Shown here one piece after another: positions 11,170-46,785 of a DNA stretch of 64,000 nt (the stretch's first letter is position 1; every line of letters begins with the position of its first letter). The notes beneath the pieces were generated by a model. That model had not been told where the DNA came from. It worked only from the letters and a program-made list of their open reading frames with translations, and did no database searches. Position numbers and translations under genes: made by a program. Source of the stretch: Oceanicoccus sagamiensis (GTDB lineage Bacteria; Pseudomonadota; Gammaproteobacteria; Pseudomonadales; Dasaniaceae); the NCBI RefSeq assembly GCF_002117105.1, contig NZ_CP019343.1:3410001-3474000 (forward strand), read 5' to 3'.

Positions 11170-11239
11170 GTAGGGTGGATTATAATCCACCAAGCCCAGC
11201 CCAGAGCCGCTATAAATGGTGGATTATAATCCACCCTAC
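11170..11239. repeat. Paired palindromic intergenic element, copy 1
   Basis: Two 22-bp arms at 11170-11191 and 11218-11239 are exact reverse complements. Each begins or ends with GTAGGGTGG and contains the perfect 18-bp palindrome GGTGGATTATAATCCACC. The spacer is 26 bp. The DNA can therefore form either two small hairpins or one long 22-bp hairpin. It fills part of the 301-bp gap between motD and parC, both on the + strand; I see no other clear element in the rest of that gap. Four more copies occur in this window. Confidence 0.93.
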
Positions 11240-11415
11240 GACTTGAGCTGATCTTAAGTATTTCTCTTACAGCAATGCGGCTGGGTGAGAATGACAGATT
11301 AACGTGTGGCGGGAATACAGCATAGGTTCCGATGGCAAGGAATTTGCTTTATCCTAGGCAACACTAAGCTCGTGTTTATTAATGACGGGTATTTGACAGC
11401 GATCAGGGGATCTAC

Positions 11416-12198
11416 ATGCGCGTTTGGGCAGTGGCAAATCAAAAAGGAGGCGTGGGTAAAACCACTTCGGCTGTGACCTTGGGTGGTCTATTGGCTGATC
11501 AGGGACATAGGGTATTGCTACTTGATCTTGACCCTCACGGCTCTATGACCAGTTATTTTGGTTATGACCCCGACAGCCTGCAAAAAAGCAGCTTTAACCT
11601 GTTTACCGATGATGAGCTGACTGTGGCTGATATCGATAGCCTGCTATTAACCACACCCGCCGAGAACCTGACGCTGTTGCCCTCCAGTATGGCCCTGGCC
11701 ACCGTTGAACGCCGTGCTGCCGCTGAAGGCATGGGCTTGAAAGTTGCCAAGGCACTGGCGCTGGTCTGGGATAGCTATGATTATGTGTTGATTGATAGCC
11801 CACCAGTACTGGGTGCATTAATGATTAATGCGCTGGCCGCCAGCGAGCGTTTATTGGTTCCGGTACAGACCGAATTCCTGGCCTTAAAGGGCCTGGAGCG
11901 GATGATTCGCACCATTACCATGGTGACCCGTTCACTGAAAAAAGAACTGAACTATTTGGTGGTTCCCACCATGTTTGACCGTCGTACCCAGGCTTCCGTC
12001 AAATCCCTGCGCACTATGCGTAATACCTATACCGATACTATCTGGGCTTCTATGATCCCGGTAGATACCCGCTTTAGGGATGCCAGCCGTGAAGGGCAGA
12101 CCCCTTCCCAGTATGACCCTCAATCCCGTGGTGTTACTGCGTACAAAGCCCTGCTAAAATTCCTGTTAGCACAACAGGAGCAACGCCTGCGCGCCTAA
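11416..12198 (+). CDS. parC: ParC, ParA-like ATPase for polar chemotaxis arrays
   Basis: ParA/Soj-family ATPase with deviant Walker A KGGVGKTT near residue 10-17, LLDLDPHGSMTSYFG and IDSPP. In Vibrio and relatives, a ParA-like protein in this position between motD and a CheW-domain gene (ParC) recruits chemotaxis arrays to the cell pole and is not the chromosome-partition ParA. The next gene, 30 bp downstream, encodes the matching ParP-type partner, which supports that role. No parB-like gene or parS sites are nearby. Function assigned by family and gene order. Confidence 0.85.
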   Translation: MRVWAVANQKGGVGKTTSAVTLGGLLADQGHRVLLLDLDPHGSMTSYFGYDPDSLQKSSFNLFTDDELTVADIDSLLLTTPAENLTLLPSSMALATVERRAAAEGMGLKVAKALALVWDSYDYVLIDSPPVLGALMINALAASERLLVPVQTEFLALKGLERMIRTITMVTRSLKKELNYLVVPTMFDRRTQASVKSLRTMRNTYTDTIWASMIPVDTRFRDASREGQTPSQYDPQSRGVTAYKALLKFLLAQQEQRLRA

Positions 12199-12228
12199 TT
12201 TGGGGCCAGTTGGCGTATAATCACCGTT

Positions 12229-13284
12229 ATGAGCAATCCTCCCGATAACAATGACAGCGAACAGGAGTCTGTGCAGGACTATCTGGACCTGTTATTAATG
12301 TCGGCCACGGAAAAACCCGAGACTCAGATAGAGGCGGTTGCCACGGATGTAGTTGCCAACAATGTCACCCCTTTTACCGGTTCCTCCCGCAGACCCAGAA
12401 CCTCCTCGGTTCACTCCCTTAATAGCAACCCCGGAGCAGCACCGGAGCGTCGGCGATATACGGCGGACACCGATAATAAGCCCTATGCAGAGCCGGCCCA
12501 GCCTTTTACCCTAAAAGCACGGCTACCCCAGGTCCAGCCTGAGGTAAAAGTCGAGCCGCCCCCACCGGTTGAGGTGATAGAGCCGGTTGAACCCCAGAGT
12601 GAGGTCAAAGTTGAGGCCAAAGTTGAGGCGAGGGTTGAGGCGAGGGTTGAGGCGAGGGTTGAACCCAAAGCTGACGCCAAGGCAGACCTCCCCCTGAACG
12701 TTGAGCCACCCGCTCCAGCTCCAGAGATAGCCACGCCCGCTCAAGAAGTAGAAGAACAAACGGTAATAGCGGAACAGGCTGTTGCAGCTACGCCACCGGT
12801 TACCGAGTGGAGCAATGGTCGACCCAGCTGGGCTCAGGAGCGTTTTGAGTGCCTGTTGTTTAAGGTCGGCGGCCTGACTCTGGCTGTCCCTCTGGTAGAG
12901 CTGGGTAGCATTTACCCGATTAACGATGAGATTACGCCATTATTCGGCCAAATAGACTGGTTTATGGGTTTGCTGCCGATTAAAGAAGGCAATCTGCGAG
13001 CTATCGATACCCCCAAGGTGGTCATGCCAGAGCGCTATACCGAGGGTATGCAGGACAACTTCCAATACCTTATCTCAATTAATGCTATGGATTGGGGGCT
13101 GGCGGTCGATACAGTGTCTAACGCTATAGTGTTGGAGCCGGAAGATGTGCGCTGGCGCAGTGAGCGCAGTAAGCGCCCATGGCTGGCGGGTACAGTGATC
13201 GAGCATATGTGTGCGTTGATGGATGTCAGTCAATTGGCGGCCATGTTTGAGGCGGAAGAGGCTAACAACAAAGCTCGGCGCTAG
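12229..13284 (+). CDS. parP: ParP-like CheW-domain protein
   Basis: C-terminal CheW-like domain (from about residue 200: ERFECLLFKVGGLTLAVPL to the end) preceded by a long disordered N-terminus rich in Pro, Glu and Val. ParP of Vibrio couples the ParC ATPase to CheA and receptors and keeps arrays at the pole; the fused disordered N-terminus plus CheW-type array-integration domain and the parC neighbour fit that protein. The disordered region contains tandem V-E-A-R repeats encoded by 12-bp units. A TATAAT only 8 bp before the start codon is probably chance. Confidence 0.82.
   Translation: MSNPPDNNDSEQESVQDYLDLLLMSATEKPETQIEAVATDVVANNVTPFTGSSRRPRTSSVHSLNSNPGAAPERRRYTADTDNKPYAEPAQPFTLKARLPQVQPEVKVEPPPPVEVIEPVEPQSEVKVEAKVEARVEARVEARVEPKADAKADLPLNVEPPAPAPEIATPAQEVEEQTVIAEQAVAATPPVTEWSNGRPSWAQERFECLLFKVGGLTLAVPLVELGSIYPINDEITPLFGQIDWFMGLLPIKEGNLRAIDTPKVVMPERYTEGMQDNFQYLISINAMDWGLAVDTVSNAIVLEPEDVRWRSERSKRPWLAGTVIEHMCALMDVSQLAAMFEAEEANNKARR
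12610..12669 (+). repeat. In-frame 12-bp tandem repeat inside parP
   Basis: Three perfect copies of GTTGAGGCGAGG (12622-12657) are flanked by one degenerate copy on each side, giving five four-residue units read as VEAK, VEAR, VEAR, VEAR, VEPK. The unit length is a multiple of three, so gain or loss of units would keep the frame and only change linker length. Confidence 0.9.
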
Positions 13285-13314
13285 TGCCCGCTGTATAAAC
13301 AGAACGACAAAGGC

Positions 13315-13330
13315 TGGCACAGATAGTGCA
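13315..13330 (+). promoter_or_regulatory. Candidate sigma-54 promoter upstream of cheW
   Basis: TGGCAC at 13315-13320 and GTGCA at 13326-13330 give the GG-N10-GC invariant of -24/-12 promoters with one mismatch to TGGCAC-N5-TTGCA. It lies 91 bp before the cheW start codon, in the 136-bp gap after parP. Sigma54 drives many polar flagellar genes in this group, so the location is sensible, but the assignment is from pattern alone. Confidence 0.45.
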
Positions 13331-13420
13331 ATGTTCTATAGTAATGGGACGGCAATGATTAATTATTGACGCCCATGCCGCTATGGTTAGCGGCGGGGTA
13401 CACCTTAAAGGTAACGATAT

Positions 13421-13900
13421 ATGTCCACAAATACAGCCAAGAATGCTGATGACCCAATGTTGCAGTGGGTAACCTTCCGTTTAGAGGGAGAAACCTACGG
13501 CATCAATGTTATGCAGGTACAAGAAGTCCTGCGTTATACCGAAATTGCGCCGGTGCCTGGCGCCCCTGCTTATGTGTTGGGCATTATCAACCTGCGGGGT
13601 AATGTGGTTACCGTTATTGATACCCGCCATCGTTTTGGCTTGCCAACGACTGAGGTCACGGACCAAACGCGTATTGTCATTATCGAAGCAGATAACCATG
13701 TGGTCGGTATACTGGTCGATGCGGTGGCTGAGGTGGTTTACCTGCGTCAATCCGAAATCGAAACCGCTCCGAATGTGGGTAACGATGAAAGCGCCCGTTT
13801 TATTCAGGGTGTCTGTAACAAAAACAATGAACTGTTGATCCTGGTAGAGTTGGACAAACTGCTTACCGATCAGGAGTGGTCAGAAATAGAAGAGTTTTAA
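13421..13900 (+). CDS. cheW: CheW, chemotaxis coupling protein
   Basis: Single CheW domain of 159 residues linking receptors to CheA. Typical segments are present: WVTFRLEGETYGINVMQVQEVLRY, VPGAPAYVLGIINLRGNVVTVID and the C-terminal LLILVELDKLL. It follows the ParP-like gene, which has its own CheW domain, so the locus encodes two CheW-type proteins plus the CheW-like end of CheA. It ends 1 bp before the next gene. Confidence 0.95.
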   Translation: MSTNTAKNADDPMLQWVTFRLEGETYGINVMQVQEVLRYTEIAPVPGAPAYVLGIINLRGNVVTVIDTRHRFGLPTTEVTDQTRIVIIEADNHVVGILVDAVAEVVYLRQSEIETAPNVGNDESARFIQGVCNKNNELLILVELDKLLTDQEWSEIEEF

Positions 13901-13901
13901 C

Positions 13902-14285
13902 ATGATTATGTCGCTTTGGATTGTATTGGTTGTCTGCTGTATTGCCTTAGTGGCAGTGGCAAGCTATGCGGTCCAGTTAAACAAGCGCCTGAGTCAGGTT
14001 GAGCAGCAGGCAGAAAAAGACATCCTGTCACTGACCCATGAAGTTGCAGCGGTTAATAGCGCGGCGATGGGGGTGGGTCAACGCTTAATCAGTGTTGAGA
14101 AAAAGCTTAAGCTGTCAATCGAAAAGCAGCAGCAAATGGCCATGAGTAATATTGAGTCCATGCCCTATAGCCAGGCAGTATCATCAGCCAGTAATGGTTC
14201 TAACGCCAATGAGTTGATTGATCGCTATGGTCTTCCTGAGGCGGAAGCCGATCTTCTTACTTTGCTAAAATCAGCGGCAAAGTAA
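13902..14285 (+). CDS. DUF2802-type membrane-anchored protein
   Basis: Small protein of 127 residues with one N-terminal membrane helix (about residues 4-24), a coiled-coil stretch (NKRLSQVEQQAEKDILSLTHEVAAV) and a C-terminal helix-turn region ending LIDRYGLPEAEADLLTLL. This matches the DUF2802 family that closes the che operon after cheW in pseudomonads. Its function is not known. The start may be the second ATG, two codons later. The C-terminal segment resembles a short DNA-binding-like helix pair, but this is not proof of DNA binding. Confidence 0.8.
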   Translation: MIMSLWIVLVVCCIALVAVASYAVQLNKRLSQVEQQAEKDILSLTHEVAAVNSAAMGVGQRLISVEKKLKLSIEKQQQMAMSNIESMPYSQAVSSASNGSNANELIDRYGLPEAEADLLTLLKSAAK

Positions 14286-14293
14286 CCCTTCCT

Positions 14294-14349
14294 TTCTAGC
14301 GGCAGCCTTCTAGCGACAACTTTCCAACGACAACTTTCCTGCTACAAGA
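14294..14349. repeat. Short 14-bp tandem repeats
   Basis: Four imperfect copies of a 14-bp unit follow one another directly (14294, 14308, 14322, 14336), consensus TTCTAGCGACAACT. The last copy is the most diverged. They lie just after the che operon and before the lipoprotein gene. I see no open reading frame or promoter in them. Confidence 0.75.
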
Positions 14350-14487
14350 AACTCTCGTCTTTTTTACTATCCCCTTTTGCGACAAACCCTGTTTATACCC
14401 AAAATGTTACTAGCAGGGGTGGGGTTTTACCTTCGATAAGTGTCTTACCTATATAAGCTTCAATAATTGGGGTAGGGGCGCGATAGG

Positions 14488-15066
14488 GTGAAGAGGTATT
14501 TCTTCTATATCTTACTTTGTCTGATGTTTGTATCAGGCTGTGCTGTCGAACCCGAGGAGGGCTCGGTTCCAGGGGCAGCGGGTGTGGCTGTTTTCTGCGA
14601 TTCAATAGGATTTAGTCATGGCAAGGTGACGGGGTGGCCGGAGCATTTAAAAACCTTAATTGATGATAAGGTTTGGCATGATTGTCGGCCGAGCTGGACG
14701 CTGCAGGATTATAATGTTGAGCAAACGATAATTGATTCAGGGCTGGCCAATAACTACCAGTATGGAGTACTCGCGCTAGGCTTTAATGACCTCTTTCATG
14801 GGGCCTTTCTGGGGGATGTGCTGGATTTATATGAGTCTACACTGGATATTATTGCATTCCATGGTTTAGAGCCTGTCTGTATGACTTATTCCTATAATAC
14901 CGTATTTACAACGCTGGCTAATCCGCTTAACGAGGGTATTGTTTTTATCTGTGAACAGCGCGGTTTAAAAATAATCGCTAATACCGATAGGCTGTTGGAT
15001 GGGCTGCACCCTGATAATTTAGGCAGTATGGAGATTGCTGAGAACGCCTGGAGAGTGCTTTATTAA
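14488..15066 (+). CDS. Predicted SGNH/GDSL-type hydrolase lipoprotein
   Basis: Begins with a lipoprotein signal (hydrophobic core, lipobox VSGC with C18), so the product should be attached to a membrane. SGNH-family blocks are visible: CDSI near the start of the mature part (nucleophile candidate S39), LGFND as the Asn block, and DGLHPDN near the C-terminus for the Asp/His pair. The second residue of the GDS block is Cys-Asp-Ser rather than Gly-Asp-Ser. Substrate unknown. Start is GTG; no better start exists. The stop codon overlaps the stop of the opposite-strand gene (TTAA shared). It interrupts an otherwise purely flagellar neighbourhood. Confidence 0.7.
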   Translation: MKRYFFYILLCLMFVSGCAVEPEEGSVPGAAGVAVFCDSIGFSHGKVTGWPEHLKTLIDDKVWHDCRPSWTLQDYNVEQTIIDSGLANNYQYGVLALGFNDLFHGAFLGDVLDLYESTLDIIAFHGLEPVCMTYSYNTVFTTLANPLNEGIVFICEQRGLKIIANTDRLLDGLHPDNLGSMEIAENAWRVLY

Positions 15067-15374
15067 GTGCTAACCGATTCTGTTATTGGGTCCCATCCCT
15101 CGGGAAACTTGCCTTGAATTTGATAGGCAAAGGCAATGACCTGAGCAATACAGAGGTAAAGTGTCTCAGGAATTTCTTCGCCAACACCAATATCCATCAG
15201 TAGCTTAAGCAGTGCCTCATTTTCAAATAATGGAATGCCATGCTGTCGAGCAATTTCAATAATTTCTTCAGCCAGCTCTCCGCTGGCGGCAGCGGAAACA
15301 GTGGGGGCGTTCTTGCCATCATACTGTAAGGCCGCCGCCTTTCTTTCTTTATGACCGGGTTCAAATTCACTCAT
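15063..15374 (-). CDS. FlhB C-terminal-domain-like protein (FlhB2)
   Basis: A 103-residue protein resembling only the cytoplasmic C-terminal domain of FlhB/EscU export-switch proteins (AAALQYDGKNAPTVSAAASGELAEEIIEIARQ, then LFENEALLKLL and the closing IPE.LY..IAQVIAFAY). The NPTH autocleavage motif is replaced by NAPT, so self-cleavage is not expected. Such stand-alone proteins are known in several flagellates and may act as an accessory in export. It overlaps the end of the upstream FliK-like gene by 4 bp, so the two are probably co-translated. Confidence 0.85.
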   Translation of the reverse strand: MSEFEPGHKERKAAALQYDGKNAPTVSAAASGELAEEIIEIARQHGIPLFENEALLKLLMDIGVGEEIPETLYLCIAQVIAFAYQIQGKFPEGWDPITESVST

Positions 15375-17101
15375 GTTCGCACATCCACTAATTGCTTATA
15401 GATCGGTAAATTATTTTTCGGTGGCAGCCCCAGTTGGCAATCGACCTGTTTAACGGTCACGCCCACTTTTTCCAGACTTTTGCTTAAGCTTGTAATCTGT
15501 TGCTGTACTTCCCGGTGGGTGTTTTCGTATTGTGACCACACCACTGCCGATACAGATGTGTCGATAATTTTAAGCTGCACATTCATTCTACCCAGCGCAT
15601 GAAGATCGAAGGCCAGCATCACAGTCCATTGCTTGGTGCCATCGGCAGTGCCGCCTTGTTCTTCGCCTTCTATCAAATGCTGGTCAATACGCAGTTCAAG
15701 ACTATCAATATTTTTGCCATGGACGATAGGGAGTTCCATGGTCCAGCTATTAACCGGGGCCTGACCGTCCGGGGTGTTGGCTTGTCTGGCGGCAAGGCTT
15801 TCCAGTTGGTTAAGTTGCGTGCGTGCCAAGCTGGCCAGTAATTGATTGCTGAGCTGTCTAAGTAATATATCCACATTTTTTTCTGCACTGGCCTGACTCG
15901 TGCTGGCTGGAATCGGGATATCAGCGGTCAAAGACGGTGCTGCGGCAGGGCTATAGGTTAGCGGATTTTTACCCTCATCGGAGCCCGTAGTGGCGATATT
16001 AATTAGTGGGCTTGGTGTGGTGCTGGTCGGGTTTGGGGGGGAGGTGGCAGTGCTTTTATCGACCTGGGCGACCAGCCGTTGCAATAGTGCTTTAGTATCC
16101 TGACTTATCGGGCTGCCGCTAGTGCTGCCCAGTCGTGTCGTCTCTGTATTAGTGTTGGCAGTTTTTGCCGGTTGCTGCGCCAGCTTGGCCTCAAAGAAAA
16201 TACCATTATTATTTAGCGCCTGCTGCAAAGGTTTGGCTTGTTGCGCCTGTTGTGAGGTTGGAAATTGCTGCAATAGCGTATTCAGGTTTTGCAGGAGCTC
16301 TTTGGGAATTTGCTGCGGCGGTTGCTGCACAATCTGTTGTATTAGCGGCAATAAATTTTTAAGGGGTTGCTGCTGCGGCAGGGCTTGTCTTAAGCCTTGT
16401 TCTATCGCGGGGCGATTATTCAAAGGCCCGGCTTCGGTTTTAACCGTATTATTAACTACCGGTGTATTGATTGCCGCTTTTCTGGCGCTGCCATCAACCG
16501 CGGGGTTTGTCAGTGATGGGCTTAGGGTGGTTTTACTGGCAGTGCTGGTGGGTGCTGCTTGCGCTTGTATCTGTGTCTGTCCCGGCGCCGCTGATTGCGC
16601 CAATGTTTGGCTTGGGTTGGGGCTGGCAATCGTTAAAATGGTCGCCAGATTATTTTGCGCCACGCTGAGCTGAATTTTGCTACCGTTTGGAATCGGTACT
16701 CTGGTTAGCAGTTCAAAGGATTGATTATTGGCGCTGATTTTTACCTTAAACTGTTGCTCGCTGTTATTGGTCGCGTGATTGGTAGGCGGGGCAGGTTTTA
16801 ACAGTTCAGCATTTACAGCGGGTTTACCGGTTAAGGTGTTGGCGTTAGTCGCCTGGCTGGATATGACCACCGCCTCAAGAATGCCCGCTTTTGCCGCAGC
16901 CGCCAGATTGCCACCCGACGTCGGTTTCAGGGGGATAAGCTGATTGATTAGTGAATCAACAGTTACGGCCATAGTTGCTGGGTTTGCTGTCGCCCTTTGC
17001 GACGCTGAGTTAAGCATGGCTTCCACCACCGCTGGGGATAATTGTGGAAGTATCTGCTGAACCAGAGCACCCACTGCCGCGTTTACTGATGAAACGCTCA
17101 T
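15371..17101 (-). CDS. FliK-like flagellar hook-length control protein
   Basis: 576 residues: a long low-complexity N-terminal and central region rich in Gln, Pro, Thr and Asn, then a compact FliK-type C-terminal domain (WTMELPIVHGKNIDSLELRIDQH, TVMLAFDLHALGRMNVQLKI, closing with a SLEKVGVTVKQVDCQLG segment). FliK proteins act as a molecular ruler and switch export specificity with FlhB; here the next gene encodes an FlhB-C-like protein, which supports a functional pair. Pseudomonads have a similar gene at the same place before ccmA. Confidence 0.82.
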   Translation of the reverse strand: MSVSSVNAAVGALVQQILPQLSPAVVEAMLNSASQRATANPATMAVTVDSLINQLIPLKPTSGGNLAAAAKAGILEAVVISSQATNANTLTGKPAVNAELLKPAPPTNHATNNSEQQFKVKISANNQSFELLTRVPIPNGSKIQLSVAQNNLATILTIASPNPSQTLAQSAAPGQTQIQAQAAPTSTASKTTLSPSLTNPAVDGSARKAAINTPVVNNTVKTEAGPLNNRPAIEQGLRQALPQQQPLKNLLPLIQQIVQQPPQQIPKELLQNLNTLLQQFPTSQQAQQAKPLQQALNNNGIFFEAKLAQQPAKTANTNTETTRLGSTSGSPISQDTKALLQRLVAQVDKSTATSPPNPTSTTPSPLINIATTGSDEGKNPLTYSPAAAPSLTADIPIPASTSQASAEKNVDILLRQLSNQLLASLARTQLNQLESLAARQANTPDGQAPVNSWTMELPIVHGKNIDSLELRIDQHLIEGEEQGGTADGTKQWTVMLAFDLHALGRMNVQLKIIDTSVSAVVWSQYENTHREVQQQITSLSKSLEKVGVTVKQVDCQLGLPPKNNLPIYKQLVDVRT

Positions 17102-17280
17102 AGGGATACCCTGATGATTGTGTATATAATAGCTGTCTTGAACGCAGATAACAGGCGCAGGCTGTTATCTTTAGCGAATGAGGGTATATAGAAGGCTACT
17201 TTCATTGTTACTATAGCGGCCGAGATAACAATAACTTGCAGGTAATTTTACCGAATCACCACAATTTGAGCTGAAACGCC

Positions 17281-17925
17281 TTGAGCCCGTCATTACCTCC
17301 TTTACTAACCACTGATCACCTCTGCTGCGAACGCGATAGCCGAGTGTTGGTGGATAACTTAAACCTGAGCATTGAGCCGGGCCGTATCTATCAGGTCGAA
17401 GGGCCTAACGGTAGCGGTAAAACTACGTTGCTGCGGGTGCTATGTGGCCTGTCTTTCCGTTATAGCGGTGAGATATGCTGGCAGGGACAGCCGGTTGCTA
17501 AAGTAAAGTCCGCCTATCATTCTCAGCTACTGTATCTGGGCCATAACTCCGGTGTTAAAGCTGCCTTAAGCCCCCGTGAAAATCTGCAATGGCATGCTGC
17601 CCTGATAGGGCTCAAAGCAGAGCAGGCCACCAAGGCCATAATGGCGGCCTTGGATAAGGTGGGTTTATATGGCTATGAAGATGCCGCCTGTTTTACTTTA
17701 TCGGCCGGGCAGCAGCGCCGGGTTGGTTTGGCGCGCTTGTTTTTAGGGGATGCTGCTCTATGGATATTGGATGAACCGTTTACCGCGATTGATAAACAAG
17801 GTGTGGCTGAATTGGAATCCTGGATTGCCGACTATGCCGCCAATGGCGGCACGGTGATTTTAACCACGCACCACGAGCTGACATTGGATGCCTCGGTCCA
17901 GCGTATTCGCCTGGGAGGCCAGTAA
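17281..17925 (+). CDS. ccmA: CcmA, heme exporter ATPase
   Basis: ABC ATPase of the CcmAB(CD) complex that works with CcmC in releasing holo-CcmE during cytochrome c maturation. Walker A GPNGSGKTT at residues 41-49, signature LSAGQQRRVGLARL, Walker B LWILDEPF. Start is TTG, with only a weak upstream ribosome site; no ATG or GTG start keeps the family N-terminus. The stop overlaps the ccmB start (TAATG). 214 residues is normal for the family. Confidence 0.94.
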   Translation: MSPSLPPLLTTDHLCCERDSRVLVDNLNLSIEPGRIYQVEGPNGSGKTTLLRVLCGLSFRYSGEICWQGQPVAKVKSAYHSQLLYLGHNSGVKAALSPRENLQWHAALIGLKAEQATKAIMAALDKVGLYGYEDAACFTLSAGQQRRVGLARLFLGDAALWILDEPFTAIDKQGVAELESWIADYAANGGTVILTTHHELTLDASVQRIRLGGQ

Positions 17926-18617
17926 TGGATTATCAAGCCCCCTCATTGGCAGCTACCTTTCTCGCCACCCTAAAGCGGGATTTACTGCTGGCCTTCCGTC
18001 GCCGCAGTGATTTTATGAATCCATTGGTGTTCTTTTTAATGGTGTGTTCGCTATTTCCTTTGGGTATAGGACCGGACCCGAAGCAGTTGGCGGTATTGGC
18101 ACCGGGGATTTTATGGGTGGTCGCCCTGTTAGCTTGCTTGCTATCCAGCGATACCTTATTTCGCAGTGACTATGATGATGGCAGTTTGGAGTTAATGCTG
18201 ATTAGTCCGGTGTCTTTATATATACAAGTGACGGCCAAAACAGTGGCGCATTGGTTGTTAACCGGTTTCCCCTTAACCTTATTATCCCCGGTGCTGGGGC
18301 TGTTATTACAGTTGCCGTTTACCGGTATGGCAGCCTTAATGATGGCCATGGCCATGGGCACAGCAAGTTTAAGTTTTATTGGTGCGATTGGTGCCGGTTT
18401 AACCGTGGGTTTACGTAAAGGGGGCTTATTGTTGTCGCTCATTATCTTGCCGCTCTATATACCGGTACTGATTTTTGGCGTGAGTAGCGTCAAAGCGGCA
18501 GTGGATGGTTTTGACTATATGGGGCAGCTAGCCATTTTGGGGGCGTTTTTGGCACTGGCAGTAACGCTGGCACCCCTGGCTATAGCCGCCAGCGTTAGAA
18601 TTAGTGCCGATAACTAA
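17925..18617 (+). CDS. ccmB: CcmB, heme exporter membrane protein
   Basis: Integral membrane permease partner of CcmA, 230 residues with about six hydrophobic segments. Family motifs LLLAFRRRSDFMNPLVFFLMVCSLFPLGIG near the N-terminus and LFRSDYDDGSLELMLISP in the centre are present. Translationally coupled to ccmA. It is separated from ccmC by 341 bp that contain an opposite-strand small gene and a regulatory site, unlike the tight spacing seen in the rest of the locus. Confidence 0.94.
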   Translation: MDYQAPSLAATFLATLKRDLLLAFRRRSDFMNPLVFFLMVCSLFPLGIGPDPKQLAVLAPGILWVVALLACLLSSDTLFRSDYDDGSLELMLISPVSLYIQVTAKTVAHWLLTGFPLTLLSPVLGLLLQLPFTGMAALMMAMAMGTASLSFIGAIGAGLTVGLRKGGLLLSLIILPLYIPVLIFGVSSVKAAVDGFDYMGQLAILGAFLALAVTLAPLAIAASVRISADN

Positions 18618-18623
18618 ACACAC

Positions 18624-18737
18624 TTAAGTAATGATACTAACGGCAATCAGTAACCCTGCGGTAACGCCTAGTAGCCCAGCAACTACCATGGCAACGCGTT
18701 TCCAAGTGGTGGCATCGTCAATAGTATGGTCGGTCAT
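18624..18737 (-). CDS. 37-residue single-pass membrane protein (uncharacterised)
   Basis: A short gene with a strong ribosome site (AGGAGA about 6 bases before ATG). The product starts MTDHTIDDATTWKRVA and then is a single hydrophobic helix to the end (about residues 15-37), a typical small inner-membrane protein with acidic N-terminus and a Trp-Lys-Arg at the membrane edge. It converges on ccmB, 7 bp apart. An FNR/Anr-like site lies 62 bp upstream of its start codon, so control by oxygen is likely. I do not recognise the family; a role as a small subunit or accessory of a cytochrome system is only a guess from position. Confidence 0.65.
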   Translation of the reverse strand: MTDHTIDDATTWKRVAMVVAGLLGVTAGLLIAVSIIT

Positions 18738-18798
18738 CGTGTTCTCCTGAATTTTATAATGATGGGTATAAGCCTACTAACTGTAAGGTTTAGCGACA

Positions 18799-18812
18799 TT
18801 GATGCAGGTCAA
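18799..18812. promoter_or_regulatory. FNR/Anr-like binding site
   Basis: TTGATGCAGGTCAA matches the FNR/Anr consensus TTGAT-N4-ATCAA at 9 of 10 defined bases; the GTCAA half is common in pseudomonad Anr sites. It lies in the ccmB-ccmC gap, 62 bp upstream of the - strand small membrane protein and about 150 bp upstream of ccmC. A weak -10 (TATACC on the - strand, 18765-18770) puts it roughly 47 bp before the likely start of the small gene's transcript. Confidence 0.6.
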
Positions 18813-18958
18813 CAAACCGCTTGTGTGTATTCGCCGATCAAAATGGCTTAATAATCAAGCTATTGGCTATCGGCTGTGGTGGTTTCTTGTATAATGTCGG
18901 ACGGTTAAATCACCGTCATTGTTAACGGATAGCTATAAAGCGGGCAGATATAAATAGT

Positions 18959-19702: not shown

Positions 19703-19703
19703 T

Positions 19704-19898: not shown

Positions 19899-19900
19899 TA

Positions 19901-24703: not shown

Positions 24704-24774
24704 GTAGGGTCGATTATAATCCGCCAAGCTCAGCCATAAGCCTGTCATGACCGGTGGATAGTAATCCACCCTGC
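24704..24774. repeat. Paired palindromic intergenic element, copy 2 (degenerate)
   Basis: Left arm 24704-24725 and right arm 24753-24774 with a 27-bp spacer. Both arms carry substitutions: the left reads GTAGGGTCGATTATAATCC, the right GGTGGATAGTAATCCACC and ends CTGC rather than CTAC. The spacer begins AAGCTCAGCC, close to AAGCCCAGCC in copy 1, so the spacers of these two share ancestry. Lies between ccmI and smc, both + strand. The remaining 190 bp before smc contain only an imperfect hairpin around TAGAAT/ATTCTA. Confidence 0.85.
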
Positions 24775-37607: not shown

Positions 37608-37652
37608 CGTTATTCCCGCAAACAAGGTGAGTTGCGCAGCAAGACAGGGCGA

Positions 37653-37721
37653 GTAGGGTGGATTATAATCCACCAGGCCCTGTTTCTGGCTCTCGAGCCG
37701 GTGGATTATAATCCACCCTAC
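37653..37721. repeat. Paired palindromic intergenic element, copy 3
   Basis: Perfect arms at 37653-37674 and 37700-37721 (22 bp each, mutual reverse complements) with a 25-bp spacer. It sits between the + strand oxidoreductase operon, already closed by its own terminator, and the - strand glyoxalase-like gene, so it is not needed as a terminator for the former. Confidence 0.93.
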
Positions 37722-37751
37722 GGGGCGTTTAGGTGGGAATGAAAGTGCTTA

Positions 37752-38192: not shown

Positions 38193-38240
38193 TATTGTTC
38201 TCCAGATATTCAGGCTTGGGATGATTATATGTCACCCAAT

Positions 38241-38267
38241 AAAAAAGGCCCATCGGGGCCTTTTTTT
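38241..38267 (-). terminator. Rho-independent terminator of the coiled-coil gene
   Basis: A6-GGCCC-ATC-GGGGCC-T7. Read on the - strand it follows the coiled-coil gene by 12 bp. The flanking A and T runs make it usable in both directions. Confidence 0.85.
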
Positions 38268-38279
38268 GAAGAGAGTTAC

Positions 38280-38828: not shown

Positions 38829-38953
38829 GGTAGGTACCTCGGTATATCAACAGGTTCAAAATCAGGTGCGAGAAAGTGCTTTGGCCTTTGGGGTGTATTC
38901 CAGACTAGACCAGCTACTGCGCTCTTTTACGGCGGCGAAGTATACATGAAATG

Positions 38954-38986
38954 CTTTCAGATGGCTAGATATTAGCCATCTGAAAG
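38954..38986. other. Perfect 14-bp-stem hairpin
   Basis: CTTTCAGATGGCTA (38954-38967) and its exact complement (38973-38986) enclose a 5-base loop. It lies 16 bp after the - strand hydratase stop. No T run follows on either strand, so it is not a standard intrinsic terminator; it may protect the mRNA 3' end or work with Rho. Confidence 0.7.
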
Positions 38987-39002
38987 GGCAGGAGGGGCGG
39001 TA

Positions 39003-39791
39003 TTAATTACCTTTAAATTCAGGTGCTCGTTTCTCACTAAAAGCATTGATGCCTTCGTTACCATCATGGATGGTGGTCATGGAGGCGATAAAGTTAGCTT
39101 CCATATCCAGTTGTGTTTCAAAGCCGTTGCTAAAGGTGGTCATAAGCAGCTTTTTAACCGCTCCAAAGGCCTGGGTGGGGCCGTTAGCCAGTTGTTTGGC
39201 CAGTGCTTCTGCTTCTGCCTGAAGTTCATCGTTAGGCACAACACGGTTGATAGCGCCCCAATCCAGAGCCTCCTGAGCGCTTAATACCCGATTGGTAATC
39301 ATTAGTTCCTGGGTCTTGCGCATGCCGATCAGACGGGGCAGGTAATAAGAGGAGCTACCATCAGGGGTTAGGCCAGCGGCGGTATAAGCCATAGTAAATT
39401 TGGCCGACTCGGCTGCCAAGACTAAATCCCCGGCTACCGCCAGGCTAAAGCCGGCACCAGCGGCGGTGCCATTGACCGCAACCACCACGGGGGCATTATT
39501 ACGGGCCAGACGTGATAGGGCGCCATGCAGGTAAAAGGTGATCTCTTTAAGCAGTGCGCTGCGGCTATCAGCCCCCGCCATGCTCTTTAAATCACCACCG
39601 GCGCAGAATAGCTTGCCGCTGCCAGTAATCAATACAGCCCTGATAGAGGGGTCATCATCAATCGCATTGGCCGCCTGCATCATTTCTTTTGCCAGTTGTA
39701 AGTTGATACCATTGGCGGCATCGGGACGGTTTAGGGTGATTTTGGCTACGCCGTCGTTTTTTTCGAATAATAGTGCTTCAAAGTCAGCCAT
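39003..39791 (-). CDS. Enoyl-CoA hydratase/isomerase family protein
   Basis: 262-residue crotonase-fold protein. The oxyanion-hole segments are visible as LFCAGGDLKSM and AVNGTAAGAGFSLAVAGDLVLAA. The catalytic position reads LTPDGSSSYYLPRLIG, with Asp rather than the hydratase Glu, which fits isomerase (PaaG-like) members better than true hydratases. It acts on CoA esters in fatty-acid or aromatic breakdown. It diverges from the glycosyltransferase gene 77 bp away. Confidence 0.88.
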   Translation of the reverse strand: MADFEALLFEKNDGVAKITLNRPDAANGINLQLAKEMMQAANAIDDDPSIRAVLITGSGKLFCAGGDLKSMAGADSRSALLKEITFYLHGALSRLARNNAPVVVAVNGTAAGAGFSLAVAGDLVLAAESAKFTMAYTAAGLTPDGSSSYYLPRLIGMRKTQELMITNRVLSAQEALDWGAINRVVPNDELQAEAEALAKQLANGPTQAFGAVKKLLMTTFSNGFETQLDMEANFIASMTTIHDGNEGINAFSEKRAPEFKGN

Positions 39792-39868
39792 GGTAAATCC
39801 TGTTTTTATGCGTTTATTAACGGTATTTATGAGTCAGGTTAATTGAAAAAAGAGTGCGCAGAGCTTAA

Positions 39869-40987
39869 ATGAAAATCTTGTTGTTGTCAGCCTATGATGC
39901 GGCCAGTCATCGGCATTGGTGTGAGGTACTGGAGCAGCACTTTGACCAGGATCAGTGGACAGTGCTGCGCTTGCCGGCCCGGTATTTTAGCTGGCGTGTG
40001 CGCGGTAATAGCTTAAGCTGGGCCTTTAGCGAACGCGATATTCTGTCACAGGAGTATGATTTGCTGATAGCCACCTCGATGGTGGATCTGTCCTCCCTGC
40101 GCGGCTTTGTTCCCTCGTTAGCCAGTATTCCCACCCTGGTATATTTCCATGAAAACCAGTTTGCCTATCCTGCCAGCCAACAACAGCACAGCTCGATAGA
40201 GCCACAGATATTAAATCTCTATACCGCTCTGGCGGCGGATAGGGTGGTCTTTAATAGTGACTATAATCGGCAGACTTTTTTATCCGGGGTAGGGGCCTTA
40301 TTAAAAAAAATGCCGGATCAGGTACCTCCGGGCCTGATGGAGCGCCTTGCACCTATCAGTGATATTTTGCCAGTGCCGCTACGTTTCCCCGAGCTTAAGG
40401 CTGCACGGGATATCAAGGCTCCCTTGCAGGTGTTATGGAATCACCGCTGGGAGTACGACAAAGCCCCTGAGCGTTTGTTTGCGGCGATTAAGCGTGTGTT
40501 AGGTGCCGGTGTAAAGATAGAGCTGCATATTGTTGGTCAGCAATTCAGGCAGTTACCTCCGGTGTTTGCCGAGATGGAAGCTTATCTTCGCGAGTCTTAT
40601 CCCGGGGCCCTTAAGCATTGGGGTTTTATCGAGGATAGTGCGGCGTACCAGCAGCTGTTATCAAGCTGTGATATCGCACTCTCGACCGCATTGCATGATT
40701 TTCAGGGGATGGCGGTATTGGAGGCAGTAGCTGCTGGCTGTATTCCTTTGCTACCCAATCGGCTTTGCTATAGCGAGTGGTTTGCTGACACCTATTTATA
40801 CCCTGGTTTAGAGGATGTCGAGCAGGAAGCTGATGCCTTGGCCAGTCAACTTAGCGAACTGGCCCGGTTAAAAGAGATTGCTCAGCTACCCAGTGCGCCG
40901 TCGGTTGAAAGGTTTTCCATCGCCTGTCTTGGTCAGCAGTATTCACAAGCTTTTGCCGAAACTATCCATAGCCATGCCAATCTGTAA
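39869..40987 (+). CDS. tRNA-queuosine mannosyltransferase-like (DUF3524) glycosyltransferase
   Basis: 372-residue GT4-type glycosyltransferase with the DUF3524 N-terminal domain (LLLSAYDAASHRHWCEVL, LPARYFSWRVRGNSL, VYFHENQFAYP). The animal homologue (GTDC1/QTMAN) puts mannose on queuosine 34 of cytoplasmic tRNA-Asp. Bacterial members are widespread but I know of no settled function. The C-terminal half has the usual sugar-nucleotide part (LWNHRWEYDKAPE, FQGMAVLEAVAAGCIPLLPN). Codirectional with trpS, 63 bp upstream. Confidence 0.82.
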   Translation: MKILLLSAYDAASHRHWCEVLEQHFDQDQWTVLRLPARYFSWRVRGNSLSWAFSERDILSQEYDLLIATSMVDLSSLRGFVPSLASIPTLVYFHENQFAYPASQQQHSSIEPQILNLYTALAADRVVFNSDYNRQTFLSGVGALLKKMPDQVPPGLMERLAPISDILPVPLRFPELKAARDIKAPLQVLWNHRWEYDKAPERLFAAIKRVLGAGVKIELHIVGQQFRQLPPVFAEMEAYLRESYPGALKHWGFIEDSAAYQQLLSSCDIALSTALHDFQGMAVLEAVAAGCIPLLPNRLCYSEWFADTYLYPGLEDVEQEADALASQLSELARLKEIAQLPSAPSVERFSIACLGQQYSQAFAETIHSHANL

Positions 40988-41050
40988 ACAGTATTATAAG
41001 CGCGCTTTGACTAAGCCCTTTTATAAACCCCAAATGATGTTGTTATTGTT

Positions 41051-42061
41051 ATGACTAAAGAACGTGTATTAACCGGTATCACCACCACAGGTACGCCTCA
41101 CCTGGGTAACTATGTGGGCGCTATTAAACCGGCTATTGAAGCCAGCAAACACAGTGATATTGATTCCTTCTTTTTCCTGGCGGATTACCACGCTTTAATT
41201 AAATGTCATGACCCTGCACAGGTCAGACAATCCACCAAGGAAATTGCAGCCACTTGGTTGGCGCTGGGTTTGGATACCGATAACAGCACTTTTTACCGTC
41301 AGTCAGATGTGCCGGAAATTACCGAGCTAAGCTGGATTTTAACCTGTATGACGGCCAAGGGTTTAATGAACCGCGCCCATGCCTATAAAGCGGCGGCACA
41401 AGCCAATATCGACGAAGGTGAAGATGCTGATAAGGCGATCACCATGGGTTTATTTAGTTACCCGGTGTTAATGGCTGCGGATATTTTAATGTTTAACGGT
41501 AAAAAAATTCCTGTTGGCAAAGACCAGATTCAGCACGTAGAAATGGCCCGTGATATTGCCCAGCGTTTTAATCATCACTTTGACGATTTGTTCGTCTTGC
41601 CCGAAGCTGATGTTGGTGACGATGTTGCTGTGCTCAATGGCCTTGATGGCCGCAAAATGAGTAAAAGCTATAACAATACTATCCCGTTGTTTTTGACTGA
41701 GAAAAAACTGCAAAAGCATATCAATAAAATCAAAACCAATTTGCTAGAGCCGGGTGAGCCCAAAGACACCGAAGATTCTACCGTATTCCAAATTTGGCAG
41801 GCCTTTGCTAATGAAGAGCAAACCCAGTATATGCGTGACCAGTTTGCTAACGGTATTGCCTGGGGGCAGGCCAAAAAAGAGTTGTTTGCTTTGATTAATG
41901 AAGAGGTTGGCCCGGCCCGCGAACGTTATGAAGAGCTGATGGCCGACGGTGATTTTATTGAGCAGGAGTTGCAGAAGGGGGGCGAAAAAGCCCGTGAGTA
42001 TGCTTCAGCCTTGTTAAAGAAAGTACGCACAGCGGTAGGTATAGCGCCCATCCTAAAATAA
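41051..42061 (+). CDS. trpS: Tryptophanyl-tRNA synthetase
   Basis: Class I synthetase of 336 residues. The HIGH-type motif is [11 protein letters not shown] near residues 11-19 and the KMSKS loop is [12 protein letters not shown] near residue 200. It charges tRNA-Trp. Length and motifs are normal. It runs into copy 4 of the palindromic element, which lies between its stop and the convergent SDR gene. Confidence 0.96.
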
Positions 42062-42092
42062 ACCGCTACTCCTCCGGAGAGGAGCTGCGGTT

Positions 42093-42155
42093 GTAGGGTG
42101 GATTAAAATCCACCTCTTCGATGCCGGTTTCTTGGTGGATTATAATCCACCCTAC
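42093..42155. repeat. Paired palindromic intergenic element, copy 4
   Basis: Left arm 42093-42114 (one change, ATTAAAAT in the core) and perfect right arm 42134-42155; 19-bp spacer, the shortest in the window. It lies between convergent trpS and SDR genes. The right arm carries the TAG stop of the SDR gene (42152-42154 on the - strand). Confidence 0.93.
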
Positions 42156-43153
42156 GCTTGTGTCAGTTCTTCTGAAGTCGTCCACAATTTGGCAGCCAAA
42201 TCCTTATCTAGCATATAAGGCCCTTCAGGTGTTACCGGATTACAATCTTCAAAGTAATTGCCCGATACTTTCTCTAAAGCAGGGTTAGTGGCTACATAAC
42301 AAGACGTGGCGGCACCGGCTTCAACCGACTTCATAAAGGTCCAACCTATTAAGCTGGCGGCAATACGCTTCCATGCCGGAAAGTGACGACCAAGATTCGT
42401 ATTAATAATACCTGGGTGAATAGAGTTTGCGGTAGCGGTTGTATTGGCAAGCTTATCTGATAACGACAGGGCAAACAGCGAGTTGGCCAGTTTGGATTGG
42501 CCATAAGCTTTCATTGGCTCATAACCTTTGCTGCCATCCAGATTATCAAATACGATACCCCCTTCAGGTGCCCACTGGTAACCCATGCTGCTAACAATCA
42601 CAATACGTCCCTGTTCAGCTGCTGTTACCTGATCCAGTAATTCGTTGGTAAACAGGAAGTGACCAAGGTGGTTGACGGCAAATTGCTTTTCTACACCATT
42701 GACCAACTCCAGTTCAGGCAGCTCCATAATACCCGCATTACAGATCAGCATGTCAATGGTGGGGCTGATTGCTTTAATGGCTTTGGCACAGCTTCTGACA
42801 GAGGCGTGGTCTGTTAGCTCCATCACCACAGGGGTGGCCTTCCCTTGCTCGATACTGGCACAGGCCTTCTCGGCTTTTTCCAGTGTTCTTGCAGTGCAAA
42901 TAACATGGGCGCCACGCAAGGCAAGCACACGCATCGTTTCATAGCCCAGACCGGAATTACCGCCAGTAACCACAGCGACTTTACCGGTCAGGTCAATACC
43001 TTCAGTGACTTCTTCAGCAGTGGATTCGGCGCCAAATTTTCCCATTGGCGGGTTGGCGGTTTGCGCAAGCAGCTGCGGGGCTAAAGCCGTGGCTAAAACA
43101 GCGGTGGTGGAATGTTGAACAAACTGGCGGCGATTAATGTTTTTATAGGGCAT
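42152..43153 (-). CDS. Tat-exported short-chain dehydrogenase/reductase
   Basis: SDR with Rossmann motif TGGNSGLGYE, NAG (ICNAGIME), catalytic Ser in VSSMGYQ and YGQSK. The N-terminus has a twin-arginine-like signal (NRRQFVQHS then a hydrophobic stretch to LLAQ), so it may act outside the cytoplasm, which is unusual for an NAD(P) enzyme of this class. I start at ATG 43153 because a terminator lies inside the longer frame upstream. Substrate unknown; it resembles retinol/light-dependent protochlorophyllide-type SDRs by order of motifs only. Its stop codon is in palindromic element copy 4. Confidence 0.78.
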   Translation of the reverse strand: MPYKNINRRQFVQHSTTAVLATALAPQLLAQTANPPMGKFGAESTAEEVTEGIDLTGKVAVVTGGNSGLGYETMRVLALRGAHVICTARTLEKAEKACASIEQGKATPVVMELTDHASVRSCAKAIKAISPTIDMLICNAGIMELPELELVNGVEKQFAVNHLGHFLFTNELLDQVTAAEQGRIVIVSSMGYQWAPEGGIVFDNLDGSKGYEPMKAYGQSKLANSLFALSLSDKLANTTATANSIHPGIINTNLGRHFPAWKRIAASLIGWTFMKSVEAGAATSCYVATNPALEKVSGNYFEDCNPVTPEGPYMLDKDLAAKLWTTSEELTQA

Positions 43154-43238
43154 AGTCAGGTTCTTCGCAGGTGGATTTAAAGGAATAACATTTAAGACAC
43201 TTACGATTCTATTCCAGAAATGGATGTTTTGCAGGTAT

Positions 43239-43264
43239 AAAAAAACCGCCTTAAAAAGGCGGTT
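43239..43264 (-). terminator. Rho-independent terminator of the TonB-receptor gene
   Basis: AACCGCC and GGCGGTT form the stem, with T7 on the - strand after the hairpin. It lies about 130 bp past the receptor gene end and upstream of the SDR gene, so the two are separately transcribed. A second hairpin without a T run (GGCAGCCC/GGGCTGCC) lies at 43337-43360. Confidence 0.82.
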
Positions 43265-43396
43265 GGCTTTTACTCGAGGGGAGAGCAAAAGCAGGGGAGC
43301 TGTGAAAACGCTATAACTTGAATATAACAGTGATTGGGCAGCCCGCCAGAATGGGCTGCCTATCTTGTGGATTGGCTCACAAAGTGGCGGTGATAA

Positions 43397-45483
43397 TCAG
43401 AATTGGATAGCAATATCGGCGTAATAAGAGCGCGGCTCACCAATAAAATACCGATCACCCGAGAAGGAAGAGAAGTCCGCCCGCTCGGCATAGTCCTCAT
43501 CGGTCAGATTATTGACCCTGATACCAACACTAATATTACTATTGAGCTGCTGGCGCAGTCTTAAATGATAAAGGTCATGGCCTTCATAGCTATGCAGATT
43601 ATCAATATCGGTGTAGTACTTGCCCATCGATACCCACTCCAGTTCCGCCCGGGTAGTGTCGGTGGGCTGCCAGCCCAACTGAACCGTGCTCATTCTGCGC
43701 GGCGCCGTATCAACATCGTTGCCGTCCAGATTGATAGCGTCATCCGAACCAAACAAACTGACATCGCTGGTATATTCATGACGGGCAAAGGTCCCGGAGG
43801 CACGAATATCCCACTGCTGGCCTAGCTGCCAGGACAGGTCGTACTCCACTCCCATATGCTCTGTCTGGCCATCATCGATATTCAGGCGATCAGAGGACTG
43901 GAAAATCACATTGGTCTTTTTCATATAGAAACTGGTCAGGCTGTACTGCACTGTATCGTGGCTGCCCCGCAGACCCCATTCAATACTATTGATTTCTTCC
44001 GAGTCTAAATCCGCCTCCATTTGGCCATTCTGTAAACGGTACATCTCAGTGGCCTGTGGCGCTCTAAAGCCATGGGCAAAACGGATATAGCTGTTAAGTT
44101 GCTCGCTAAACTGATGGTTGATACTGGCATTGGCGGAGATATTATCAAAGTCATCTTTGCTATCTTCAGGGCGGGTATAGCGGCAACCCTCGGCGCCGGA
44201 GCGGCTATTAATACATACCGAACCGTCTTCAGCGGTATTGCCCGCTATCATCTGGTTGTCATAGTCGTATTCTAAAAACTCATAGCGACCACCCAGTGAC
44301 GCCACCGTATTGGAGGTAAGACTGTAATCGGCATTGATAAACGCAGCCAGCATCATCGCTTCCACCTCATAGTCATACTGTTTGCCCGCCGGGAAGGAGG
44401 AAAAGCCGCCTTCCTGTGACTGCTTGAGATAAGCATCGGTAAACTCCGCATCAAAGCCCTGACGCAGGCTGAGACCATTGCTGGTCTGTCGCTGGTAGCT
44501 GCTCTGCACACCGGCACTCTTTTGGCCATTGTCTTCCAGTGGTGTGCCGGGTAAAAAGTGCATCAAAAATTCCATATCGGTATAGCGGGCATAGGGTGTG
44601 ATAATAAAAGAGCCGCCATTATTGAGTGATTTTTCGATACGGCTTTGCAGGCGTACGGACTGGCTATCGCGGTAGGCTTCGGGGTTGGGGTTTTCCCGGC
44701 GGCGGTCGCTCTCTTTGTAGGCCTCTTCACCTTCAACATAGCCCGCAGTTTCCTGATTCAGATTGCTGACACTTAACAGCGTATTGATAGCAAGATTGTC
44801 CGCGGTGTAATCATGGCGCGCAGTCATCTTCTGCTGGTCAAAACCGGAGTCATCTTTATAGCCGCCATCGTGGGCGCCATTAAGGTTAATGCGGTAGCCA
44901 TGTTGGCCGTCATTATCGCTCTGGCTGAACTTAAGACGGTAGTAGTCATTGGAGCCCGCTTCGAGATTGAGCTGTTGTTGGTCGGCAGCGGAGGGCTGGC
45001 TGATCACATTGATAACGCCATGCAGGGCATCGGAGCCGTGGGAAACGGTGCCGGGCCGCGCAGTACTTCTATGCGTTGGGCTTGCTCGGTATTGATATCA
45101 AACAGTTGGTTCACATTACAAAAGCCGGTAGCGCGCACCGGTACGCCATCTTCGGCCACGGTAAAGGCACCGCAGCTGCCAGCACCGGTTAATACCGGTG
45201 AGCGAATGGCGGTCAGGTGTTCCTGACCATTGCCGCGGCTAATCCAGACACCGGGGACTCTGGCCAATGCTTCGCTGATATGGATGGCCGAGATTTGTTC
45301 CAGCTCCTGTTCTGAAATAAGCGATAAGCTGGCGGCACTATCGGCGAGTGATTGTTCAGTTCGGGTGGCGGTGACGACCGTGGTCTCCATCGCATCGTTG
45401 CTGGCTGCTTGGATTTGCAGGGGTAGGGCGATGGAAGCTAATAAGGTGGTGATTAGGGCCGAGCGAATATCAATGATAGGCAT
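43397..45483 (-). pseudogene. TonB-dependent outer-membrane receptor, split by a frameshift
   Basis: The first frame (45004-45483) holds the signal peptide and plug (ETTVVTATRTEQSL, EALARVPGVWISRGNG, RIEVLRGP) and then loses the family sequence. The second (43397-45007) begins at the plug end (VISQPSAADQQQ) and runs through the 22-strand barrel to a terminal aromatic (ADIAIQF). Adding one G at 45051-45055 restores RGPGTVSHGSDALHGVINV and joins both, for about 695 residues. Substrate is not evident; no Fur box is visible upstream. Everything else in the gene looks functional. Confidence 0.88.
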
Positions 45484-45793
45484 AAAGAATAAGGCTTTTA
45501 TTAGTTAAAAAAGTTAGCGGCGCGCATTATAGCGAATGCAATGTTTAATGTTTACGGTAAAAAAGGGCTAATTGTGTAAATTCGCGGCTATTTTATCGCC
45601 TGACCAGTTTGAAGGCTGTTAGTGCGGGCTAATTCACAGCTAATAATTTGAATCTATTAGTTTTTTAATCTAAGTTTAAGGGTTATTAATGGGTGGTTTA
45701 ATCGGCCCAAATCAGGGGGTTTAGTGCAGTTGACTGAAGGGTTTTAGTGGCAGCACTGTGATTCTTTACAGATAAAATAATAAGGGTATAAAC
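45484..45793. other. Divergent intergenic region, no gene seen
   Basis: 310 bp, AT-rich, between the receptor gene (leftward) and the GGDEF gene (rightward). It must hold both promoters, but I see no convincing -35/-10 pair, no Fur box and no hairpin. AATAAGGG at 45779 is a plausible ribosome site for the GGDEF gene. Confidence 0.6.
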
Positions 45794-46699
45794 ATGTCGT
45801 CTGATAAGCCAACGCTTTTGGTTATTGGTTCTAATGCTGTGATGGAGTCAGCTCTCTGTCAGCATTTGCAGTCAACACTCTCGCTGGCTTATGCCGCCAA
45901 TGCCGATCAGGTGATTGATGTCACCACAGATGACGAAGGCATTGACCTGTTATTGTTTGATGTTGATAGCCTGGGTGAAAGCGCCCATGAAACCTGCCTG
46001 TGGCTAAAGACCGATAATGAGACCAAGCATCTACCGGTTATAGTGATCATGTCTGATACCCAGCAGGCGTCCAAGTGGCTAAATATTGGGGCTGTTGATG
46101 TTATTAACCCTGACAGCCCGGTTGAGGTGGTTGAACGGCGCTTAAATACGCTGCTAGAACTGCAACATAAAACCCATTTACTGAGTGACATTGCCTCCCT
46201 TGACCCGCTAACGGCCCTGGCCAGCAAGCAGCGTTTAGATGAGTATCTGGATATTGAATGGCGTCGCAGCTTACGCGAGTTTTATCCGCTGTCGCTAATC
46301 AGTATCGATATTGATTTATTTACCGGCTTTAACGACCAGAATGGTTTGGGTAGCGGTGACGACGCTTTAAGACGTATTGCCAGAGCTTTGGAGGGCAGCA
46401 GCAACCGAGCGGCGGATATGGTGTCCCGCTATCAGAGTGACCAGTTTGTGGTATTGCTGCCGACTATTGAGTTGGAGAATGCTCTGGTCGTGGCTGAACG
46501 GATGGTGGCGGCGGTAGAAGCCTTGGCGATTCCCAATCAGGCGTCAACCATTGCAGATATATTAACGGTCAGTGCCGGTGTGGCGACGATCGAGCCATCC
46601 CGTGATAAGCGTTATGAAGATTTGATGGATGAAGCGCAGGAAATGCTTTATCGCTCGCAGCAAGAGGGCGGCAATCAGGCACAAGGTGTCTCCCTGTAG
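45794..46699 (+). CDS. Degenerate GGDEF protein with receiver-like domain
   Basis: N-terminal receiver-like domain of about 120 residues (LLLFDVDSLG at the phospho-Asp position) and a C-terminal GGDEF domain. The active-site motif is QSDQF at residues 214-218, so GTP binding and cyclisation are unlikely. The inhibitory site RAAD at residues 205-208, five residues before the motif, is intact, as in proteins that sense c-di-GMP instead of making it. The neighbouring IDIDLFTGFNDQNG and VSAGVA segments are normal for the fold. The TAG stop is supplied by palindromic element copy 5. Confidence 0.85.
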   Translation: MSSDKPTLLVIGSNAVMESALCQHLQSTLSLAYAANADQVIDVTTDDEGIDLLLFDVDSLGESAHETCLWLKTDNETKHLPVIVIMSDTQQASKWLNIGAVDVINPDSPVEVVERRLNTLLELQHKTHLLSDIASLDPLTALASKQRLDEYLDIEWRRSLREFYPLSLISIDIDLFTGFNDQNGLGSGDDALRRIARALEGSSNRAADMVSRYQSDQFVVLLPTIELENALVVAERMVAAVEALAIPNQASTIADILTVSAGVATIEPSRDKRYEDLMDEAQEMLYRSQQEGGNQAQGVSL

Positions 46700-46785
46700 G
46701 GTGGATTACAATCCACCACCCGTCTCCCAAAACATGCCCTGCCGAATAAGTGATAGCTTGAATGGTGGATTATAATCCACCCTAC
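46696..46785. repeat. Paired palindromic intergenic element, copy 5
   Basis: Left arm 46696-46717 (one change, ATTACAAT core) and perfect right arm 46764-46785, with a 46-bp spacer, the longest in the window. Both neighbours end inside it: the GGDEF gene's TAG is at 46697-46699 and the yjbQ gene's TAG at 46782-46784 on the other strand. The element fills the whole convergent interval. Confidence 0.93.

Follow-up and report, generated by a model that had tools for sequence, protein, structure and literature searches.

The window analysed here, a stretch of 64,000 nucleotides (bases 3410001-3474000 of the 4,472,079-base single-contig genome of Oceanicoccus sagamiensis), carries five copies of a paired palindromic element in the gaps between genes, exactly where an earlier note on this DNA had placed them (Table 1). 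Ten matches to the 18-mer core of the element, with up to three mismatches allowed, occur in the window, and each is an arm of one of the five copies. Shuffled versions of the window contained a mean of 0.06 matches and ten were reached in none of 100 shuffles, so chance is excluded as the origin of these copies. The spacers between the arms span the 19 to 46 bp previously described, and those of copies 1 and 2, noted as related, both fall in one recurring class of 26-27 bp. The placement of three copies (3, 4 and 5) between convergent genes was likewise reproduced with home-made gene models. The description needs correction on two points. A perfect 18-bp palindrome had been ascribed to every arm; this holds for six of the ten, and the arms at 42097 and 46700 have one mismatch and both arms of copy 2 have two. 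The outer-end tag, given as uniform, deviates in copy 2, which has GTAGGGTCG and GCAGGGTGG.

Table 1. Repeat copies and repeat-derived stop codons, in window coordinates.
Feature	Position	Strand	Description
REPIN copy 1	11170..11239	.	arms 11170-11191 (+) and 11218-11239 (-); 26-bp spacer, common class; gap between two + strand genes
REPIN copy 2, decayed	24704..24774	.	arms 24704-24725 (+) and 24753-24774 (-); 27-bp spacer, common class; gap between two + strand genes
REPIN copy 3	37653..37721	.	arms 37653-37674 (+) and 37700-37721 (-); 25-bp spacer; convergent gap
REPIN copy 4	42093..42155	.	arms 42093-42114 (+) and 42134-42155 (-); 19-bp spacer; convergent gap
REPIN copy 5	46696..46785	.	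arms 46696-46717 (+) and 46764-46785 (-); atypical 46-bp spacer; convergent gap
TAG stop, SDR oxidoreductase gene	42152..42154	-	from GTAG of copy 4 right arm
TAG stop, GGDEF (diguanylate cyclase) gene	46697..46699	+	from GTAG of copy 5 left arm
TAG stop, yjbQ-like gene	46782..46784	-	from GTAG of copy 5 right arm

Every copy, taken as single-stranded DNA, folds best into one long hairpin, one of the two foldings that had been proposed, with z-scores of -9.9, -1.8, -9.2, -7.1 and -5.9 for copies 1 to 5. The fold of copy 2 was equalled by 13 of 200 shuffles, and this copy is decayed. Copy 5 supplies the TAG stops of both convergent genes beside it from its two ends, its spacer matches no common class, and it may consist of two single repeats flanking leftover intergenic DNA. 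A search of the window with Rfam at gathering thresholds returned two tRNAs only, the element matching no curated RNA family.

Anatomy of the unit and the dimer

The structure of the repeat was read from an 849-kb sample made up of the window and 40 further stretches of the genome, in which 170 units were found with at most two mismatches (a shuffled control of 10 of the 41 stretches gave 2 raw matches). The 22-nt unit consists of GTAG, the stem strand GGTGGAT, a T-NN-A apex and the complementary strand ATCCACC, so that the short palindrome carries an unpaired GTAG, or a close variant of it, at one foot only; all unit places among the matches listed, which are part of 321, are 22 bases long. 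The two middle bases vary in units with this stem (AT 66, AA 24, AC 23, GT 19 and GC 16 of the 170 units). Each of the eight outer stem pairs is Watson-Crick in 29-34 of 36 distinct sequences, with some compensated changes. The stem has no bulge, and two patterns for bulged REPs found no match in the sample.

Among 102 pairs of neighbouring units within 120 bp of each other, 69 are head-head (HH, GTAG outside), 23 tail-tail (TT, GTAG inside) and 10 in tandem (HT). The spacers of the HH pairs measure 18-28 bp in 66 of the 69 and belong mostly to two recurring types of about 20 and 26 bp, the latter occurring in both orientations. Like and unlike loops are combined within a dimer with no preference (17 of the 69 pairs have like loops, 18.9 being expected), and 11 of the 68 elements of the sample are single units.

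Copy number and placement in the genome

A count over the complete sequence gave 326 exact 18-mers and no match to the reversed control pattern, and 235 HH pairs are found with a pattern allowing a gap of 10-40 bases. Some copies form tandem arrays, the two at contig positions 745634 (745634-746556, five copies) and 1374619 (1374619-1375254, seven copies) having periods of 213 and 96 bp. Further arrays of units or dimers were seen at 449810-450406 (115 bp), 662564-663443 (162 bp) and 865845-866308 (100 bp).

Gene models for the 849-kb sample came from a home-made caller. Overlap with a gene by more than 12 bp was seen for only 3 of the 68 elements, where random placement would give 57 (minimum 48 in 1000 placements). 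The earlier note had named few copies, or copies equally common inside genes, as evidence against a repeat family; here they are numerous and seldom lie inside genes, and the family is intergenic and genome-wide. Four elements sat at the edges of stretches, and the 61 that could be placed between genes lie in 33 same-direction, 19 convergent and 9 divergent gaps. Convergent gaps are enriched (19 of 61 against 33 of 322 other gaps of at least 60 bp, p 7e-5), a comparison biased by the element itself, which lengthens the gap it occupies.

The RAYT gene and its relatives

The search for a REP-type Y1 transposase gene with matching copies nearby, proposed together with the repeat, was successful. 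Pfam PF01797 (Y1_Tnp) has one match over its cut-off in the genome. The RAYT protein, of 172 residues, reaches 201 bits with NCBIfam NF047646 (REP-associated tyrosine transposase), whose cut-off is 80, and its residues 1-168 align with the structure of the E. coli TnpAREP (PDB 4ER8) at an E value of 9e-45. The protein contains the motifs DHLH (HUH) and YIFYNP, which align with 4ER8 and with the motifs given for subclass 2.2 in PMC6006769; by this likeness, the YIFYNP tyrosine is the putative catalytic residue. The gene sits outside the window and has REP units on either side, three downstream and four upstream; none is further off than 160 bp, and the nearest lies within 30 bp. Four of these seven units (locus L031, 1225-1276 and 1853-1925) have a variant stem, which reads GGTGGAATTTATTCCACC on the + strand and in which a base pair is swapped and complementarity is kept.

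Three further matches to NF047646 in the genome are weaker than those listed, and a second, more distant Y1 enzyme may be present. NF047646 is over its cut-off in 59 of 194 genomes of the order, the present one included. Among the family members listed, two (G001, G002) have no match and three (G003, G008, G009) have matches below the cut-off only; the system was therefore probably acquired by the Oceanicoccus sagamiensis lineage, or lost by the others. As no other listed member of the family is over the cut-off, the link between this RAYT and its REP is supported by one genome.

The type of REP was set against RAYT phylogeny by reading the flanking repeats at the best 80 loci of a longer list and at 29 loci from the order, and a tree of 107 rows was built. 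REPs were detected with a home-made script that scores large loops as complex; a strict hairpin script, which misses bulged REPs, found repeated GTAG or GCAG hairpins at 17 of the best 80 loci. The RAYT of the present genome belongs to a 33-row clade (support 95/88), within which the tree does not fix its position. Flanking REPs were detected in 18 of the 33 rows, of which 17 are bulged and one, that of Oceanicoccus sagamiensis, is a perfect hairpin; in the other 15 the home-made script detected none. The relatives of highest identity (L073, L074, L076 and L077, the last from Methylomonas sp. LW13) have REPs of the form GTAG-GGTGGAT-AAGCGCAGCGC-ATCCACC or close variants, and therefore the lower stem is common to them and to the repeat described here, the bulge and the upper stem being what is missing. 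Across the whole tree 11 rows count as perfect and 54 as bulged or complex, with 42 left unscored, and the REP-type label needs five changes, so the shift to a perfect REP is not unique to this genome. The short-tailed rows L177-L179 and L181, which we infer to be group 3, stand apart from the RAYT of this genome with support of 100/100; the latter has the C-terminal tail and groups with the E. coli TnpAREP rather than with the short-tailed rows.

Likeness to known systems

The doubly palindromic pairing had been put forward as an unrecognised form, which it is not: it corresponds to the "HH dimer" of GTAG REPs (PMC3733652), to the BIME and to the REPIN (PMC3116915). The GTAG-REP HH dimers agree with the present element in the GTAG foot, a stem of 6-13 bp, a loop of 2-3 bases in many families, the GTAG-outside arrangement, spacers that belong to recurring types and measure 20-100 bp for the most part, grouping in tandem, a bias toward unidirectional or convergent gaps, the use of the TAG as a stop codon and the linkage to a RAYT in a REPtron (PMC3733652). 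The sequence family found here may or may not be among the 24 families of that paper. REPINs share with it the inverted-repeat doublet of REPs, the over-representation and the link to a RAYT, but the sequences of those of P. fluorescens differ (PMC3116915). The short REPs of Haemophilus influenzae, H. parasuis and Pseudomonas mendocina are also a GTAG followed by a short perfect hairpin, and those of Haemophilus begin GTAGGGTGG as here, although the inner stem and loop are others in both Haemophilus and P. mendocina (PMC2817692).

On the side of the enzyme the closest likeness is to the E. coli REPtron, of group 2 or subclass 2.2. The alignment with its RAYT includes the C-terminal tail, and the motifs DHLH, WE and YI-YNP of the subclass 2.2 TnpAREP are common to the RAYT of this genome (PMC6006769). 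A further point of likeness is that the high-identity relatives have a bulged REP of the AA/GC type, built on the lower stem also found here. The REP of E. coli is bulged, whereas that described here has neither bulge nor upper stem (PMC8266576, PMC6006769). The Marinomonas REPtron Mb, of group 3, has a short perfect hairpin as here, with a TTTA loop that resembles the T-NN-A apex, but its stem is of 5 bp and begins 2 bases from the GTAG, and the group 3 enzymes are without the C-terminal tail that the RAYT of this genome has (PMC8266576). A literature search for GTAGGGTGGATT returned no REP paper; by title, its matches concerned lilies and Cupriavidus sulfur metabolism. The REPtron is well formed; it and its REPIN population are of an ordinary kind and, as far as checked, make up a new sequence family. 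Two features go beyond the routine. The bulge and tip are absent here, in a RAYT clade whose other detected REPs are all bulged, short perfect REPs being known elsewhere, and the GTAG often provides a neighbouring gene with its TAG stop, in most cases at the place of the native stop.

Origin and spread of the repeat

We consider, with a probability of roughly 0.93, that the five copies are head-head dimers of GTAG REPs, that is REPINs, non-autonomous elements that would be moved in trans by the RAYT of the genome (a TnpAREP of the HUH/Y1 kind). By analogy with the TnpAREP enzymes of E. coli, Stenotrophomonas and Marinomonas, as presented in PMC8266576, the RAYT would bind the folded hairpin and the GTAG foot while the DNA is single-stranded, and would then cut nearby with the catalytic tyrosine and move or copy the dimer. 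Some dimers, together with flanking DNA, would expand into tandem arrays, and copies would settle mostly right behind gene ends, the site of least harm. Some copies may later have come to act as terminators or as structures at RNA 3' ends.

Recent spread is also indicated by the relatives. Another 26 genomes of the order, six of them of the same genus, contained no pair. Across 577 kb from four relatives there was one match with at most two mismatches, and it was non-palindromic, against 211 units in 1119 kb of the present genome. For 19 of 91 elements the matching gene ends could be located in relatives, and no unit lay within 600 bp of them. The convergent gene pair of copy 5, for instance, occurs without the element in G003, a member of the same genus, and in G001. 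This absence, with the near identity of the copies and their tandem arrays, weighs against the leading alternative, that the repeats are kept mainly as RNA hairpins which end or protect transcripts downstream of genes, their mobility being a thing of the past. That elements favor convergent gaps and positions close behind the 3' ends of genes agrees with that view (the enrichment of convergent gaps is also compatible with selection for a terminator role), as do the long hairpins, stable in four of the five copies of the window, but the elements between divergent genes do not, and on balance we regard it as unlikely, though not negligible. Less probable still is that the single 22-bp REP is the moving unit and that pairs arise by independent insertion or local duplication: the single units, and copy 5 with its long spacer and its arms at the ends of different genes, can be read in this way, but HH pairs predominate among neighbours and their spacers are narrowly confined in length and of recurring sequence classes. 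A DDE-type MITE without relation to the RAYT, which the inverted repeats at the outer ends might recall, is hardly credible given that both ends are hairpins in their own right, with the GTAG foot on one side only, that single, TT and HT arrangements exist and that units of this repeat flank the RAYT gene.

This genome combines a single strong RAYT and a single REP family with hundreds of nearly identical copies, and its relatives have empty sites, so that the choice of target can be read from the junctions. The RAYT clade also offers a natural contrast between a lower stem with a bulge, in the relatives, and the same stem without it, here.

Gene ends and junctions

That GTAG termini are a frequent source of TAG stops was noted earlier (PMC3733652). 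In the present genome an element was found within 60 bp of 49 gene 3' ends, and 13 of these ends use the TAG of its GTAG, three of them in the window. Seven such gene ends could be compared with four relatives, in 15 comparisons that are not independent. The proteins are of the same length within one codon in 13 of the 15, those of the present genome being 2 and 10 codons shorter in the others; an origin of the REP-supplied stops by truncation is disfavored by this agreement. The stop of the relative is TAG in 7 of the 15 comparisons (GTAG in 2), against 4 of 24 where the element lies further downstream (one row of which ran off its stretch), an excess with a one-sided p of 0.049 with that row and 0.058 without it, in comparisons that are not independent. 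At copy 5, the diguanylate cyclase gene of G003 has the same GTAG end and the same last five residues as its counterpart here, and in G001 the stop of this gene is TGA.

With REP-supplied stops mostly at the native position, and one relative having the GTAG without the element, these sequence comparisons hint that insertion may take place beside pre-existing TAG stops. The hint falls short of proof, because GTAG is absent at the stop in most relatives and all four of them have a yjbQ-like protein one residue longer than the one here. In IS200/IS605 elements, a target tetranucleotide is retained at the junction. A joint proposal would be that insertion occurs directly 3' of an existing GTAG or NTAG, that TAG stops serve as harmless landing pads and the GTAG foot is at least in part a retained target and not a sequence brought along by the element, and that a TnpAREP of the group 2 type no longer depends on the stem bulge, which the E. 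coli enzyme needs; as a whole this is speculative and, in our judgment, improbable.

Likeness between copies ends at the GTAG, and 101 of 104 outer 12-base flanks are distinct. No fixed cleavage dinucleotide (CT or CA) was seen near the outer end, where only a preference for C before the GTAG appears. In the 849-kb sample, C stands directly before the GTAG at 51 of 104 outer ends (p 5e-8), and few ends have a G at any of the three preceding positions (10, 12 and 9 of 104).
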